NCBI RefSeq assembly: GCF_000426305.1
Contig: NZ_AUFC01000001.1
Coordinates: 1-64,000 of the forward strand
Origin: Anaerovorax odorimutans DSM 5092
GTDB lineage: Bacteria > Bacillota > Clostridia > Peptostreptococcales > Anaerovoracaceae
DNA: 64,000 bases
Direction of reading: 5' to 3'
The notes below the pieces were generated by a model that searched no databases, was not told the DNA's origin, and saw nothing but the letters and a program-made list of their open reading frames with translations. Positions 13,234 through 17,432 of this stretch are shown here, in pieces. Position 1 is the stretch's first letter, and each line of letters opens with the position of its first letter. A program made the position numbers and the translations under genes.

Positions 13234-13593
13234 TTAATTTTCAATTTCATCACTAAAGGCTTCCCTCATTCGAAGGACGGCCTTTTTTTCAATTCTTGAA
13301 ACATAGGAACGGGAAATTCCAAGTTCTTTTGCAACTTCTCTTTGCGTCTTAGGCTCCTGACCTTCTAGTCCATAACGTTTTATAATTATTAAGCGCTCTC
13401 TGTCGCTTAAAATATCATGAATAGCACGATACAATTTTTTTACCTGCATTTTATTATCTATATCATCAATAATTGTATCTGCATCAGTACCTAAAATATC
13501 ATTAAAGCTTATCTCATTGCCGTCTTTATCTGTACCGATGGGATCATTTAGAGAAATTTCAATTTTATTTTTCTTTGTGGTACGTATATTCAT
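13234..13593 (-). CDS. sigK: sigK 3' half (RNA polymerase sigma-K, C-terminal part; spoIIIC equivalent)
   Basis: This encodes sigma-70 region 3/4 of the late mother-cell sigma factor. The segment SLNDPIGTDKDGNEIS and the C-terminal helix-turn-helix with TQREVAKELGISRSYVSRIE are diagnostic of sigma-K. Region 2 is missing and is found 3.5 kb away on the same strand (17049-17432). The coding frame actually extends upstream of the ATG into the 11-bp att core. Joining at that core gives NEI followed by LMNIRTTKK with no gap, so the gene is interrupted, not decayed. It has no ribosome site of its own and should be expressed only after excision of the element. Confidence 0.95.
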   Translation of the reverse strand: MNIRTTKKNKIEISLNDPIGTDKDGNEISFNDILGTDADTIIDDIDNKMQVKKLYRAIHDILSDRERLIIIKRYGLEGQEPKTQREVAKELGISRSYVSRIEKKAVLRMREAFSDEIEN

Positions 13594-15248
13594 TAATATT
13601 TCATTTGCAATACAGAATCTACGGAAACATTTTCATCAATTAAAATTATATCTATATTTTTGCCATCCCAAACGATTGATTTTGTAAGACTTTTTATAAG
13701 GTTTCTTTTATCTTCTACACTTAGAGCATCAATTGTACTACTTAAATTTTCAAGCATGGCTTTTATTTTATCTGTTTTACAGTCAATTGGATTTTCTTCT
13801 TCGGATAATTGATTTAATTGTAAGAGTCTTGAATTTAATGATTCTTGCTCTTTGTCTAATTCTTCAATTTGTTCAATAAAATATTTAGCAGCAGAACTTT
13901 CATCTGATGAAGTTAAGGTATTAATTAATTTTTTTATTATTTTTTTATTATTTTTTATTACATTTTCAATTTGTATTATTTCATTATGTAAAGTTGATTT
14001 TTCATAAATTATTGATTTTCTTGAAGTTAAACTAAGCAATATATAAGAGTTCTCTAAAGATAATTTTTTTATTTCATCTAAAACCAATTGATCTAATAAA
14101 TTACCTTTTATATTTTTAGAAGAACATAAATGCTTTTTACTTTTTTCTTTTAATTCACACATGTAATAATACTGCATAACACCATCTTTATTTATTCTGC
14201 CTGTACGTGGCCTCATGAAGGAGCCGCAATCTTTACAGCGAAGTATACCCGAAAGAATTGCAGAAGTATTTTTTACAGTCCTGAAATTTTTAGAGCTGTT
14301 ATGTTTTATAAGATTTTGAACTTCAACCCATTTTTTACCAGATATAATACCATTGTGTTCTCCAACTGCTATGATCCACTCATTAGGTTTTCGTATTTGA
14401 TTAGTAGCATGCTTTTTTTGAGATGTTTTATTATAAGCAATAATTCCATTTACATTATTAAACTCAGAAATAGATGATGAAATTGAATAACCGTTTGAAG
14501 TAAAATAATCATACAAATATTTATCCCCTATGGCATATACAGGGTTTGTCAATATTGATTTAATTGCAGTGGAAGTAAAATTAATATTTTTTCTTGTTTT
14601 AATACCATTTTGAAGGCAGTATGACTGAACTTTTGTTAAAGATTTCATTTCTAAGAACTGATTAAAAATTATTAATACTTTATTAATTTCTGATTTTATG
14701 GGAGTTAGTTTAAATCTCTTTTTATATTTACCGCCTAGACTAGAACAAACAATAGAATCGGATTTATACCCTAGAGGAGTAATTCCCCCTAACCAGCGGC
14801 CTGTTTTAGCAAGCTGAAGCATATTATCTCTAATACGTTCAGCTGTTGTTTCTCTTTCCAGTTGGGCAAAAACACTGGCAATAAACATCATAGCTCTTCC
14901 CATGGGAGTAGTTGTATCGAAATGTTCTTTTATAGACACAAAAGATACATTATATTTTTCAAAATCGTCAATCAGTGCAGAAAAATCACTTATATTACGG
15001 CTTATTCGATCTAAACGATAACAGATTACTATATCAAAAGTTTCATTTCTTATTGATTTCAGAAGAGATTGGAAAGCCGGTCTTTCAGTATCCTTTCCTG
15101 AAAAGCCTTCATCTTCAAAAATATCTCTATCAAAAACATCAGTATCAAAATTTTTTATTGCATATTCACGACATAAATTAATTTGATTTTCTATTGATTC
15201 TCCTTTATCTGTAAGTTTGGATTTTCTTGAATATATAGCAATTCTCAT
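13593..15248 (-). CDS. spoIVCA: Large serine site-specific recombinase of the sigK skin element (SpoIVCA type)
   Basis: A 551-residue large serine recombinase. The resolvase domain (1-150) has the catalytic serine in IYSRKS and the arginine-rich YRLDRISRN motif. A recombinase domain follows, then a zinc ribbon with CKDCGSFMRPRTGR and a second Cys pair around C378/C387, then a C-terminal coiled coil (about 415-480). Its last codons run through the att core and its stop codon lies on the sigK side, so the stop changes on excision. A sigma-E-like promoter lies upstream. By position and strand it is the equivalent of SpoIVCA, which excises skin in the mother cell. Confidence 0.94.
   Translation of the reverse strand: MRIAIYSRKSKLTDKGESIENQINLCREYAIKNFDTDVFDRDIFEDEGFSGKDTERPAFQSLLKSIRNETFDIVICYRLDRISRNISDFSALIDDFEKYNVSFVSIKEHFDTTTPMGRAMMFIASVFAQLERETTAERIRDNMLQLAKTGRWLGGITPLGYKSDSIVCSSLGGKYKKRFKLTPIKSEINKVLIIFNQFLEMKSLTKVQSYCLQNGIKTRKNINFTSTAIKSILTNPVYAIGDKYLYDYFTSNGYSISSSISEFNNVNGIIAYNKTSQKKHATNQIRKPNEWIIAVGEHNGIISGKKWVEVQNLIKHNSSKNFRTVKNTSAILSGILRCKDCGSFMRPRTGRINKDGVMQYYYMCELKEKSKKHLCSSKNIKGNLLDQLVLDEIKKLSLENSYILLSLTSRKSIIYEKSTLHNEIIQIENVIKNNKKIIKKLINTLTSSDESSAAKYFIEQIEELDKEQESLNSRLLQLNQLSEEENPIDCKTDKIKAMLENLSSTIDALSVEDKRNLIKSLTKSIVWDGKNIDIILIDENVSVDSVLQMKY
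13596..13606 (-). repeat. Skin attachment site at the sigK 3' half (core plus arm)
   Basis: Minus-strand AAATGAAATAT, identical to 17084-17094, contains AATGA, the crossover core described for Bacillus subtilis skin. Thirteen bases inside the element lies the arm TACGGAAACATTT (plus strand, 13620-13632), inverted relative to the arm at 17065-17077. Confidence 0.9.
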
Positions 15249-15263
15249 AATCTCACCCCAATT

Positions 15264-15294
15264 ATGTATATGCTGAAATTTGCTTGTGATATTC
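15264..15294 (-). promoter_or_regulatory. Sigma-E-like promoter of the skin recombinase
   Basis: On the minus strand, GAATATC (15294-15288) and CATATACAT (15272-15264) are separated by 15 bp. This resembles the sigma-E pattern KMATATT-N14-CATACANT. The position, about 16 bp before the recombinase start, and the known mother-cell expression of spoIVCA fit. No experiment supports it. Confidence 0.45.
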
Positions 15295-15385
15295 GGATTA
15301 AGACTGATTATAATGAGAATTGAAAATGAAAAATGCTTTGTAATTTAAGACTTAATATTGTAGAATACTTGGGGGTGATGTCAAA

Positions 15386-16387
15386 TTGAGAGAAATTATT
15401 ATAGAAAAAGCAATATTACATATATTAGATACAACTGTAGATACAACGGTATTATCAGAAGAGCTGTTAAATCTATCTGAAACAGAAGAATTTTTACAAA
15501 AACATATAATCAAACTTTTAAAAGATAGTGAAATTAAAGAATGTATATTTGAAAAAGAAGGGAATCAGATAAGGGAGAATATACGGAGTTTAAATGATGA
15601 TAATTTTATTTTCCAGTCACAGCAGATAGCCAATACATTACATTCCTTTATGTTATCTAATATAGATATACCTGCAGCTGATGTTGTTTTCTGCATTTTT
15701 AAAGAAGAACAAAATAGGTATATTGGTATATTAAAGTTTAATTATAAAGAAGCTTATACACATAGTCTAAATATAGAAGATGATAAACAGACAGTAAGTC
15801 TTATGAAATATAAAACTATATTAGCAAATGATACTCAAAAAATAGATGAATGTATATTTATAAATTTGAATGACTTTTCATTAAAAATAAAAGAAAAAAA
15901 ATACGAAATTAACGGACAAAAGGATTATTATATTTCCAATTATTTGTTAAAGGCACAGCCGGCACATTCTTATAAAGAACAATATAAAATAGTAGAAAAA
16001 TCAGCAGAAGAGATTGTTAAAAAGTATTATCCGGGAGATTCTATGAAGCAGGCTGAAGTAAAAATAGCTATAAAAAATAACGTAGATGAAAATTTAGAAG
16101 TTGATATAGACAATATAGCTAGAGAGGCATTTTCAGACAGTGAGGATATGCAGAATCAATATAAATCTGAAATTTCACAAAATGGTTTTGTAGAAAAGAA
16201 AATAAAAATTAACGAACAAATTTATGAAAAACTAGAAAAAAGTCATAAAATTATTACTGATGTAGGAATAAAAATGGATATACCAACTGATTTATTAAAA
16301 GATAAAAGAAAAGTTGAATTTATTGTTAATCAAGATGGAACCATGTCTATATTAATAAAAAATATAAATGAAATGAAGAACAGATAA
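15386..16387 (+). CDS. NdpA-like 37-kDa nucleoid-associated protein, skin cargo
   Basis: A 333-residue protein starting at TTG with GGGGGTGATG upstream. The opening IIIEKAILHILD, the central segment VVFCIFKEEQNRYIGILKFNY and the later YYPGDS block match the 37-kDa nucleoid-associated protein family (NdpA/YejK, PF04245). Such proteins bind or associate with DNA. It is soluble, with no membrane segment. It diverges from the recombinase gene inside the skin element with a 137-bp shared intergenic region. A role in element biology or simple cargo cannot be decided from sequence. Confidence 0.75.
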   Translation: MREIIIEKAILHILDTTVDTTVLSEELLNLSETEEFLQKHIIKLLKDSEIKECIFEKEGNQIRENIRSLNDDNFIFQSQQIANTLHSFMLSNIDIPAADVVFCIFKEEQNRYIGILKFNYKEAYTHSLNIEDDKQTVSLMKYKTILANDTQKIDECIFINLNDFSLKIKEKKYEINGQKDYYISNYLLKAQPAHSYKEQYKIVEKSAEEIVKKYYPGDSMKQAEVKIAIKNNVDENLEVDIDNIAREAFSDSEDMQNQYKSEISQNGFVEKKIKINEQIYEKLEKSHKIITDVGIKMDIPTDLLKDKRKVEFIVNQDGTMSILIKNINEMKNR

Positions 16388-16490
16388 ATTTTGTTTTTTA
16401 ATATAAAAATTTAAAATAAAAAATTAAATTTAAATTTAGTAAAACTAAAATTATTAAATTTTCAATTTATCATTGGCCTTTTTCGTATAA

Positions 16491-16554
16491 ACCTCCTATA
16501 TTGAGATATAGGACAAAACGAGGGTTGCATATAATTGTAGAACTTATAGGAGGT
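16491..16554 (+). promoter_or_regulatory. Two competing hairpins, one covering a ribosome site
   Basis: ACCTCCTATA (16491-16500) is complementary to TATAGGAGGT (16545-16554), which is the ribosome site of the 62-residue gene. The same left arm (16494-16500) can instead pair with TATAGGA at 16507-16513. If transcription starts upstream of 16491, the two folds are mutually exclusive and would switch translation off or on. From the nearer promoter at 16528 the left arm is absent, so translation would be open. Confidence 0.4.
16508..16535 (+). promoter_or_regulatory. Sigma-E-like promoter of the 62-residue skin gene
   Basis: CATATAAT (16528-16535) matches the sigma-E -10 element CATACANT except one base, and ATA (16508-16510) lies 17 bp upstream, the same spacing as in the recombinase promoter. 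The -35 flanks are weak. Confidence 0.38.
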
Positions 16555-16559
16555 GTTGT

Positions 16560-16748
16560 ATGGCTAAAATAATTAATATAAGAGTACAAAAATCAACAAC
16601 GGAAAAAGGAGAACTTTTATTACAGAAGAAATTTGCAGATTGTATTGCCACAGGCATAATTAATATCATAAAAAAAGCACCTGTATCAAGTCGTATTGAA
16701 ATATATGAGAATTTGATTGAAAATATAAAAAAAGGCTTATTTAATTAA
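16560..16748 (+). CDS. 62-residue orphan protein of the skin element
   Basis: I do not recognise this protein. It is 62 residues, basic, without cysteine clusters (one Cys), without a membrane segment, and predicted mainly helical in its second half (VSSRIEIYENLIENIKKGL). The ribosome site TATAGGAGG is 5-6 bp before the ATG and is very strong, so the gene is probably real. It lies inside the skin element with a sigma-E-like promoter of the same spacing as the recombinase. In C. difficile a small skin-encoded protein is the directionality factor required for excision; this one is the best candidate here by size and place only. Confidence 0.6.
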   Translation: MAKIINIRVQKSTTEKGELLLQKKFADCIATGIINIIKKAPVSSRIEIYENLIENIKKGLFN

Positions 16749-16803
16749 TATTTTTAATGTTTAAGTAAATAATATATTTAACATTAATAAGGAGGTGCTG
16801 TAA

Positions 16804-16992
16804 ATGAAGGCAATAATTGACGAAAGCGGTTGTATAGGATGTGGTATTTGTGTAAATACTTGTCCTCAGGTATTTCAGTTAGGAGAAAATGGACTTGCAC
16901 AAGTAATAAATGATAAAATATCTTCAGATCTTGAAAATGTTGTAGAAGATGCAAAAAATGAATGTCCTGTATCTGTTATTTCCATAAAATAA
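16804..16992 (+). CDS. Single-cluster [4Fe-4S] ferredoxin, skin cargo
   Basis: A 62-residue ferredoxin. Ligands C10, C13, C16 (CIGCGIC) and C54 (ECPVSVI) form one [4Fe-4S] site; C20 is part of the CP turn of the degenerate second half. AAGGAGGTG precedes the ATG. A hairpin (TTAATGTT at 16754-16761 and AACATTAA at 16780-16787) lies just upstream. It is the last gene before the sigK 5' half, whose transcript converges on it. A metabolic ferredoxin as skin cargo is unexpected, and its partner is unknown. Confidence 0.85.
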   Translation: MKAIIDESGCIGCGICVNTCPQVFQLGENGLAQVINDKISSDLENVVEDAKNECPVSVISIK

Positions 16993-17048
16993 TAATTGTA
17001 AAATTAAGGTATAATTTTATTTTTATATCTTAATTTTTTATTTTGAAT

Positions 17049-17432
17049 TTAAATATTATCATATAAATGTTTCCGTAAACTATATATTTCATTTTCTATA
17101 CATTTGGCAGCATAAGTAGCTAATCTGACACTTTTATTTCTGTTATAAGTATTTACTGATTTAATAAGTCCTATTGTGCCTATTGAAATTAAATCATCAG
17201 GATCTTTTCCGGTATTAGAATATTTTTTTGCTATATGAGCAACTAATCTTAAATTACGTTCTACCAAAATATTTTTAGCACACATATCACCTTGTTCATA
17301 GCAAGTTAAATAATAATCTTCTTCTTTCTCAGTAAGCGGTTTGGGAAAAGAATTACCAAGTGCTACATAAGAAGAAAGCAATACTAAAGGATTTGAAAAT
17401 AATAGGGATGCTAAAAGAAAAGATATACTCAT
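17049..17432 (-). CDS. sigK: sigK 5' half (RNA polymerase sigma-K, N-terminal part; spoIVCB equivalent)
   Basis: This encodes the pro-sequence and sigma region 2 of sigma-K. The N-terminal 33 residues are hydrophobic and align with the B. subtilis pro-sequence including SYV and FPKPL, so SpoIVFB-type processing is likely. Region 2 shows [29 protein letters not shown] and [13 protein letters not shown]. The genuine sigK frame ends at I116; the last 11 codons ([11 protein letters not shown]) and the stop are supplied by the skin element. A GGGG-type ribosome site precedes the ATG. Excision joins I116 to the 3' half at 13234-13593. Confidence 0.95.
17084..17094 (-). repeat. Skin attachment site at the sigK 5' half (core plus arm)
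   Basis: Minus-strand AAATGAAATAT, a direct repeat of 13596-13606. Six bases inside the element lies the arm AAATGTTTCCGTA (plus strand, 17065-17077), the exact inverse of the arm near the other end. The two arms are 30 bp apart in the predicted excised circle, with their centre of symmetry inside the core. Confidence 0.9.

Follow-up and report, generated by a model that had tools for sequence, protein, structure and literature searches.

A compact skin-type element interrupting sigK in Anaerovorax odorimutans and its predicted excision

Introduction

The described systems closest to the locus reported here are the skin element of Bacillus subtilis, skinCd of Clostridioides difficile and the gin element of Bacillus cereus. 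In B. subtilis, as at our locus, sigK is split by an element that encodes a serine recombinase, SpoIVCA, acting together with Skr, and the two parts of the gene are joined in frame (PMC4191935, PMC6957869). That element is, however, prophage-like and about 48 kb long, with a core of five nucleotides (PMC13141910), and skr overlaps the start of spoIVCA (PMC6957869), whereas the small ORF at our locus is separate and divergent. The skinCd element likewise interrupts sigK and encodes a serine recombinase; S10A abolishes the activity of CD1231, and CD1234 is a 72-aa recombination directionality factor (RDF) under the control of sigma-E and SpoIIID (PMC5025042). It differs in carrying 19 genes, its insertion site is not that of the B. 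subtilis skin, and C. difficile SigK lacks a pro-sequence (PMC5025042), whereas the N-terminus at our locus resembles one. The gin element of gerE shares with our locus its gene-intervening position, the absence of phage genes, the pairing of a recombinase (GirC) with a partner (GirX) and a predicted cleavage at AA, but comprises 28.6 kb, 31 genes and three recombinases in another target gene (PMC5595907). The likeness of the recombinase studied here to SpoIVCA is one of description, as is that of the proteins to CD1231 and CD1234.

Results and Discussion

The split sigK gene and its attachment sites

The window, the whole 64,000-nucleotide stretch of the A. odorimutans DSM 5092 genome that was analysed, contains a sigK gene broken after codon 116. 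The intervening 3,488 bp lie between 11-bp direct repeats (ATATTTCATTT on the plus strand, AAATGAAATAT in the sense direction of sigK; copies at 13596-13606 and 17084-17094).

13234-13596, minus strand: sigK 3' part, from LMNIRTTKK to the stop codon (ORF 13234-13593; TIGR02846, 147 bits)
13596-13606, minus strand: attR core, sense AAATGAAATAT, from the repeat and dyad analysis
13620-13631, no strand assigned: attP arm on the sigK 3' side, plus-strand sequence TACGGAAACATT, from its dyad with the opposite arm
17066-17077, no strand assigned: attP arm on the sigK 5' side, plus-strand sequence AATGTTTCCGTA, from its dyad with the opposite arm
17084-17094, minus strand: attL core, sense AAATGAAATAT, from the repeat and dyad analysis
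17085-17432, minus strand: sigK 5' part, codons 1-116 (ORF 17049-17432; TIGR02846, 163 bits)

Both ORFs and their spacing agree with what the initial annotation had proposed. Its claim that joining through the repeat restores the frame also holds: the joined SigK has 236 residues, with CIENEI followed by LMNIRTTKK at the junction, and scores 327.8 bits against TIGR02846, above the family cut-off of 298.65, whereas each half alone falls below it. By eye, the 5' part begins with a pro-sequence-like N-terminus. A second intact sigK, which had been named in advance as one finding that would speak against a skin element, was not found in a search of the whole genome, and a copy elsewhere was thereby ruled out. 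The strongest other SigK-type match (C42:5021-5650, 266.5 bits, below the 298.65 cut-off) directly precedes another sigma-factor match; the pair looks like sigE beside sigG, a naming that we infer.

Together, the ends of the element make up an attP dyad with AA at its centre; 26 of 40 positions are paired, 13 of them consecutively. The same AA was the best of 13 centres tried in all 17 elements parsed within the order, a set without G093, whose 3' part lies on another contig, and G152, whose parts lie on two contigs. Outside the order this AA was again the best centre in eight of nine elements tried; the ninth, G482, did not match the anchor pattern, was left unparsed and stands outside the result. 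The dyads of several relatives are weak, the lowest having 12 of 30 positions paired. A chance repeat was ruled out, since the register of the repeat restores the frame, a dyad flanks it and the same junction is found in relatives. The site seems identical to that of the B. subtilis skin, which we take to be ENEI followed by LM, with an AATGA core.

Genes within the element

13593-15248, minus strand: large serine recombinase, 551 aa (Resolvase, Recombinase and Zn_ribbon_recom domains; phrog_95 integrase)
15386-16387, plus strand: NA37/NdpA-like protein, 333 aa, TTG start (PF04245, E 1.6e-39)
16507-16534, plus strand: putative sigma-E promoter with a SpoIIID-like box, TATAGGACAA-N11-CATATAA, from a shared motif
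16560-16748, plus strand: 62-aa protein, putative RDF, from a held-out profile and a conserved promoter
16804-16992, plus strand: 4Fe-4S ferredoxin, 62 aa (PF13370, E 1.7e-14)

A recombinase accompanied by three small genes only had been described; the total of four genes stands, but one of the supposedly small genes encodes the 333-aa member of the NA37 family. The recombinase shows the order that characterizes large serine recombinases, namely Resolvase, then Recombinase, then zinc ribbon, and Ser10 within YSRKS, located by eye, is its candidate nucleophile. Its 3' end crosses the attR core, so that the stop codon (13593-13595), just beyond the repeat, is sigK sequence. The locus combines features by which sigK elements are recognized: two in-frame coding parts with an element between them, a site-specific serine recombinase of the element's own, and att flanks whose recombination would, judged from sequence, restore sigK. 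Prophage-like gene content, which is typical of such elements without strictly defining them, is absent.

Domain and phage-profile searches revealed no phage structural or transfer gene among the four ORFs, and phage relatives were found for the integrase and the NA37 protein only. The sole phage record with a similar integrase is from Terrisporobacter (45% identity over 74% of the query). Ten phage records match the NA37/NdpA-like protein, with 26-34% identity among the eight matches listed. This protein and the ferredoxin are probably cargo.

The candidate directionality factor and its promoter

The 62-aa ORF is preceded by a ribosome-binding site and joins a family of small ORFs that are divergent from such recombinases (E 8.4e-5 with 147 divergent ORFs, the window held out; E 0.42 in a wider set of 2,094 ORFs). 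The two-helix model of the protein matched no fold in the PDB at E <= 0.001. Searched with a profile, PDB sequences yielded three hits, the best at E 0.2, and no RDF was among them; identification as a known RDF by fold or sequence was therefore dropped. Its family, position and promoter indicate that it is probably an RDF.

With regard to the promoter, the motif was derived by reading 19 upstream regions side by side, that of the window among them. It precedes an ORF of 55-82 aa in 19 of 22 distinct copies at the loci compared, a count made in the same elements, window included, from which the motif was drawn, and is absent from the loci of other orders that carry similar elements. The exact motif occurs once in the 3.26-Mb genome. 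When one mismatch is allowed, it has nine matches against 19 for a reversed control; as it is then rarer than the control, its informative value lies in the exact match only. For single elements, matching against the sigma-E consensus of B. subtilis was ambiguous. Both spoIIID and spoIIAA-AB-sigF are intact in the genome. Taken from sequence, the motif is suggestive of excision timed to the mother cell.

Proposed mechanism and alternatives

We estimate a probability of about 0.85 that this is a compact skin-type sigK element, devoid of phage structural genes, which would be excised in the mother cell by its recombinase and an RDF. The anatomy of the locus and its conservation in relatives make it well supported that the element would restore sigK upon excision. 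The sequences show the reading frame, the dyad, the conserved motif and the recurrent co-occurrence of recombinase, small ORF and split sigK; gene expression, the excision event with its timing and cell type, and an RDF function are what we infer. Vegetative cells and the spore line would keep sigK in two parts. In the mother cell of a sporulating cell, sigma-E, probably aided by SpoIIID, would activate the gene for the 62-aa protein, and this protein would act as RDF for the large serine recombinase that the element encodes. The recombinase would join attL with attR at AA within GAA-AAT-GAA (Glu-Asn-Glu); the 3,488-bp circle would be lost and an in-frame 236-aa SigK produced, with GAAAATGAAATATTAATG as the predicted joint. 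The proposed scheme agrees with what has been proven for CD1231/CD1234 in C. difficile.

The alternative that survives best, although unlikely, retains developmental excision but assigns no RDF role to the 62-aa protein: the recombinase would need either no partner or a host factor, and control would lie in the expression of the recombinase itself. The expression of spoIVCA in the B. subtilis skin only in the mother cell, under sigma-E (PMC4191935), is compatible with such control, and the wide search lent the 62-aa protein modest profile support. This alternative is at odds with the held-out family membership and conserved promoter of this protein, and the B. subtilis skin also requires an RDF, Skr (PMC6957869).

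Even less probable is a mobile element that entered sigK by accident and whose excision is random or stress-driven rather than bound to the mother cell. In its favour, the yin element of C. botulinum is reported to have been excised at every time point (PMC10747680). The NA37-like and ferredoxin cargo genes would fit such an element, as would the presence of other matches to serine recombinases elsewhere in the genome (14 rows, the element's own included, at about 11 places), but the four ORFs include no transfer or phage structural gene, and the sporulation-type motif before the small ORF is conserved across the elements of the order.

Least probable of all is that the element sits permanently in a decaying sigK, with excision and late sporulation lost: transposable or phage insertions frequently just disrupt genes, and a strong sigK match is missing from 43 of 60 genomes sampled in the family to which the window belongs, which makes sporulation loss common nearby, but the sigK parts, the recombinase, the 62-aa ORF with its ribosome-binding site and promoter, and the att halves all look intact, sigF, spoIIAA/AB and spoIIID are intact, and the identical junction recurs in several families.

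Distribution and layouts among relatives

By manual count of rows, sigK is in pieces in 32 of 49 genomes of the order, which had been preselected for carrying the same recombinase type. Relatives such as G091, G137 and G479 share the sigK site, the recombinase family and the AA crossover with the window. The relatives' elements range from 1.6 kb upward and occupy two insertion sites, the window's and a second one; some genomes have sigK in three pieces. Unlike in the window's element, genes for NA37 and ferredoxin are missing from many of them, the orientation of the recombinase differs (that of the window's element is unlike most in its order), and some show doubled or inversion layouts. In G075 and G064, as assembled, sigK is repairable by inversion only. 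Other orders contain sigK elements of 1,634-1,648 bp, and the one that was fully read contains a reading frame for a recombinase, with a single small ORF upstream. The search of relatives suggested by the initial annotation yielded many split sigK genes with the same junction, but the window's element is neither unique nor the smallest case. Its reading as a minimal functional element fails, since two of its four genes look like cargo and shorter elements exist in other orders. A related-locus search in a set of genome contigs gave one distant match.

A literature search covering titles and the starts of abstracts, with most subscription journals beyond its reach, brought up no few-kilobase sigK elements, nor any three-piece sigK, inversion-restored sigK or yunB interruption; the described sigK elements for which it gave sizes are phage-like and span tens of kilobases (48 kb, 22 kb). 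On balance, we lean towards the view that Clostridia harbour widespread, long-lived, intron-like developmental elements consisting of a serine recombinase and a small directionality factor. These would have a sigma-E-type promoter in this order, use two sigK sites, sometimes both (giving three pieces), measure down to 1.6 kb, also split yunB, and form a sigK inversion switch in one family. The window's element and its relatives suggest that a pair of genes together with a pair of att sites makes up the working unit, which would open the components required for programmed excision of DNA to direct tests. The elements also supply compact pairs of a recombinase and a candidate RDF whose att sites are defined, and they allow excision to be compared with inversion in natural examples. 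Annotation may miss split or three-piece sigK genes or label them pseudogenes.

In the recombinase tree, the window's protein falls within a clade supported at 99/96, whose 12 rows represent three families; 11 rows lie at the window's sigK site, and the remaining one is at the edge of a contig. Flank labelling in the tree missed G002 and G086, both of which another parsing places at the window's site; G002 spans two contigs and has no element size. Long branches were flagged for L032, L051, L109 and L027. The join search sought joins giving the GNE motif, and its restoration is therefore partly by construction. The G142 run was unlike the others in this GNE-join analysis.

The split sigK gene and its element

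This analysis revealed that the 3,488-bp element of Anaerovorax odorimutans DSM 5092 is a compact skin variant without phage structural genes. It belongs to a wider class, of which no description was found among the titles and abstract openings searched. The anatomy, reading frame and conservation of the element are observed. The main features are the following:

17432-17085, minus strand: 5' part of sigK
17084-17094: 11-bp core, first copy
17066-17077: attP arm AATGTTTCCGTA
16507-16531: promoter motif, 28 nt ahead of the ATG of the 62-aa ORF
13620-13631: attP arm TACGGAAACATT
13596-13606: 11-bp core, second copy, 3,488 bp from the first
13596-13234, minus strand: 3' part of sigK

The splitting of sigK, proposed in the initial annotation, was borne out: the two minus-strand parts, joined through the core, encode 236 aa scoring 327.8 bits on TIGR02846 (cut-off 298.65). 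A whole-genome search for another intact sigK, which that annotation had named as counter-evidence, found none. Intact copies of spoIIAA, spoIIAB and sigF (named by order and sequence) and of spoIIID are present. By eye, the SigK N-terminus looks like a pro-sequence, and proteolysis may therefore form a second layer of control; SigK of C. difficile is described as having no pro-sequence (PMC5025042).

The recombinase (551 aa) comprises Resolvase, Recombinase and zinc-ribbon domains. Its Ser10 stands within YSRKS, and we read it as the putative counterpart of S10 of CD1231, whose activity is reported to be abolished by an S10A change (PMC5025042). The recombinase frame crosses the attR core and takes its stop codon from sigK sequence (window 13593-13606, 17030-17094); with attP read by hand, the excised circle would lengthen the C-terminus by 17 codons. 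The element also encodes a ferredoxin, an NA37/NdpA-like protein with relatives in 10 phage records (eight listed, at 26-34% identity), and a 62-aa protein with no match in Pfam, NCBIfam or PHROGs. Its G+C content is 26.1%, versus 31.2% for the window. Genome-wide, 14 large serine recombinase match rows fall at about 11 places including this element, the others being at C1:86218 and on contigs C5, C6, C10, C13, C15, C22, C25, C28 and C41.

Distribution, size and orientation

Of 247 Peptostreptococcales genomes, 49 carry recombinases of the window's type (E <= 1e-90); in the Clostridia sample 31 of 293 do (E <= 1e-100). By hand count, sigK lies in pieces, some across separate contigs, in 32 of the 49 order genomes, a biased rate as the set was selected for the recombinase; in 16 others a sigK match exceeds the cut-off, and one has no match. 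In a sample of the window's family, sigK exceeds the cut-off in 12 of 60 genomes and has no match at E <= 1e-28 in 43; it is split in the window and in G002, and broken at contig ends in G029.

Sizes of sigK elements in relatives (bp; those of the order from coordinates)
Order: G091 2,246; G142 2,659; G137 2,872; G147 2,917; G168 3,647; G080 5,096; G107 5,117; G162 5,588; G086 6,142; G156 7,155; G132 7,304; G120 about 34.7 kb; G144 about 43.9 kb
Other orders: G299 1,634; G479 1,646; G328 1,648; G523 2,133; G307 2,681; G481 6,595; G449 6,611; G398 6,638

The earlier suggestion that the element is minimal does not hold, given smaller sigK elements down to 1,634 bp; it is small, yet neither minimal nor unique. 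The 1.63-1.65 kb elements (L152, L154 and L155 in G479, G328 and G299) have recombinase frames of 453-455 aa, shorter than the window's. In that of G479, the recombinase frame (454 codons) is accompanied by one small ORF upstream, which by eye resembles the putative recombination directionality factor (RDF) family.

The recombinase tree (n=49) places the window in a 99/96 clade that comprises 12 rows and spans three families; 11 of these rows are at the same sigK junction (site A), and one is at a contig edge. The recombinase of the window and G002 is on the sigK strand, adjoining the 3' part; in most order relatives it is on the opposite strand and usually adjoins the 5' part, except in G086, where it lies 2.9 kb away. 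Within the class loci that were read, the orientation seen in the window prevails.

Probable crossover site

The attP formed by the joined ends is a dyad (26 of 40 positions) centred on an AA inside the core. The analysis was repeated on 17 site-A elements of the order (the window and 16 others, leaving aside G093 and G152). The joined frame reads CIENE(I/L)LM in 17/17, and the same AA was the best of 13 tested centres in all 17 (12 to 22 of 30 matching); the core position was given beforehand, from conserved sigK sequence, and the dyad centre is independent of it. Eight of nine elements tried from other orders could be parsed, and all eight agree on AA. As the crossover orientation at AA is constant in sigK, it is the recombinase gene that has switched sides relative to attP.

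Promoter motif, small protein and proposed switch

Many of the small ORFs encoded divergently to the recombinase are preceded by WATAGKACAA-N11-CATA. Within the genome, this motif is matched exactly only by the window copy; with one mismatch allowed there are 9 matches versus 19 for the reversed pattern, and the exact match alone is therefore informative. Order loci totalling 962 kb (some overlapping, the window left out) contained 36 raw copies, versus 0 when the sequences were reversed and an average of 0.05 for each block shuffle, the motif having been derived from these same elements, window included; 250 kb of other-order loci held none. In one set of loci, 22 distinct copies were counted, the window's included; 19 of them stand ahead of an ORF of 55-82 aa that has a ribosome-binding site. 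Embedded in the motif is GGACAA or GTACAA, which we read as a putative SpoIIID box by the B. subtilis consensus. The motif also resembles the sigma-E promoter of C. difficile spoIIID, given as ATA-N16-CATATATA in PMC3789822, with a spacing of 17 rather than 16.

The divergent ORFs form a family. Against its profile built without the window, the 62-aa protein scored E 8.4e-5 among 147 divergent ORFs, where the best non-family ORF reached 0.15; its score weakened to E 0.42 when the set was widened to 2,094 ORFs. AlphaFold models the protein as two helices (pLDDT 83.7, pTM 0.51), and this model has no PDB match at E <= 0.001.

We infer that the element is expressed and excised and that the 62-aa protein acts as its RDF. 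Most likely, sigma-E and SpoIIID would direct synthesis of the RDF in the mother cell, attL and attR would recombine at AA, and SigK would then be produced, which is the C. difficile scheme described in PMC5025042.

Further sites and target genes

A second sigK site (site B), after GNE in KEGNE|ISL, holds a different recombinase, 20-24% identical to the window's. By tblastn coordinates, the smallest site-B element is about 2.5 kb (G069) and the largest 11 kb (G221). Joining through 6-13 shared bases gives GNE(I/L)SL.DIL in 16/16 tried, which is support and not proof, since the script searched for the GNE motif. Both sites are occupied, leaving sigK in three pieces, in G147 (L083), G142 (L086; second recombinase not seen), G086 (L049/L092), G064 (L042/L122) and G152 (L084/L085; across two contigs).

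In G075 (L048, 7679-10147) and G064 (L042 and L122), two of five genomes examined of one family, the later sigK part is on the strand opposite the 5' part (N>, <rec, <C). In this layout excision cannot restore sigK, and judging from the sequence only inversion between AA-centred sites would. The layout may be an assembly error; both joins are in frame at site A.

Related recombinases also adjoin a truncated GidA/TrmFO-type FAD protein (PF01134; L039 and L137, with L134 by motif) and a gene end that is ABC transporter-like by eye (L047, L129, L136; no family match for L047). Truncated yunB adjoins them in seven tree rows by sequence motif. The three loci checked (L046, L128, L131) match TIGR02832 at 4e-16 to 1e-17, with scores under the cut-off as expected of fragments. 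By motif, L132 and L133 likewise have truncated yunB beside a recombinase of the same family, and in L131 and L133 the promoter motif also occurs upstream of the recombinase start.
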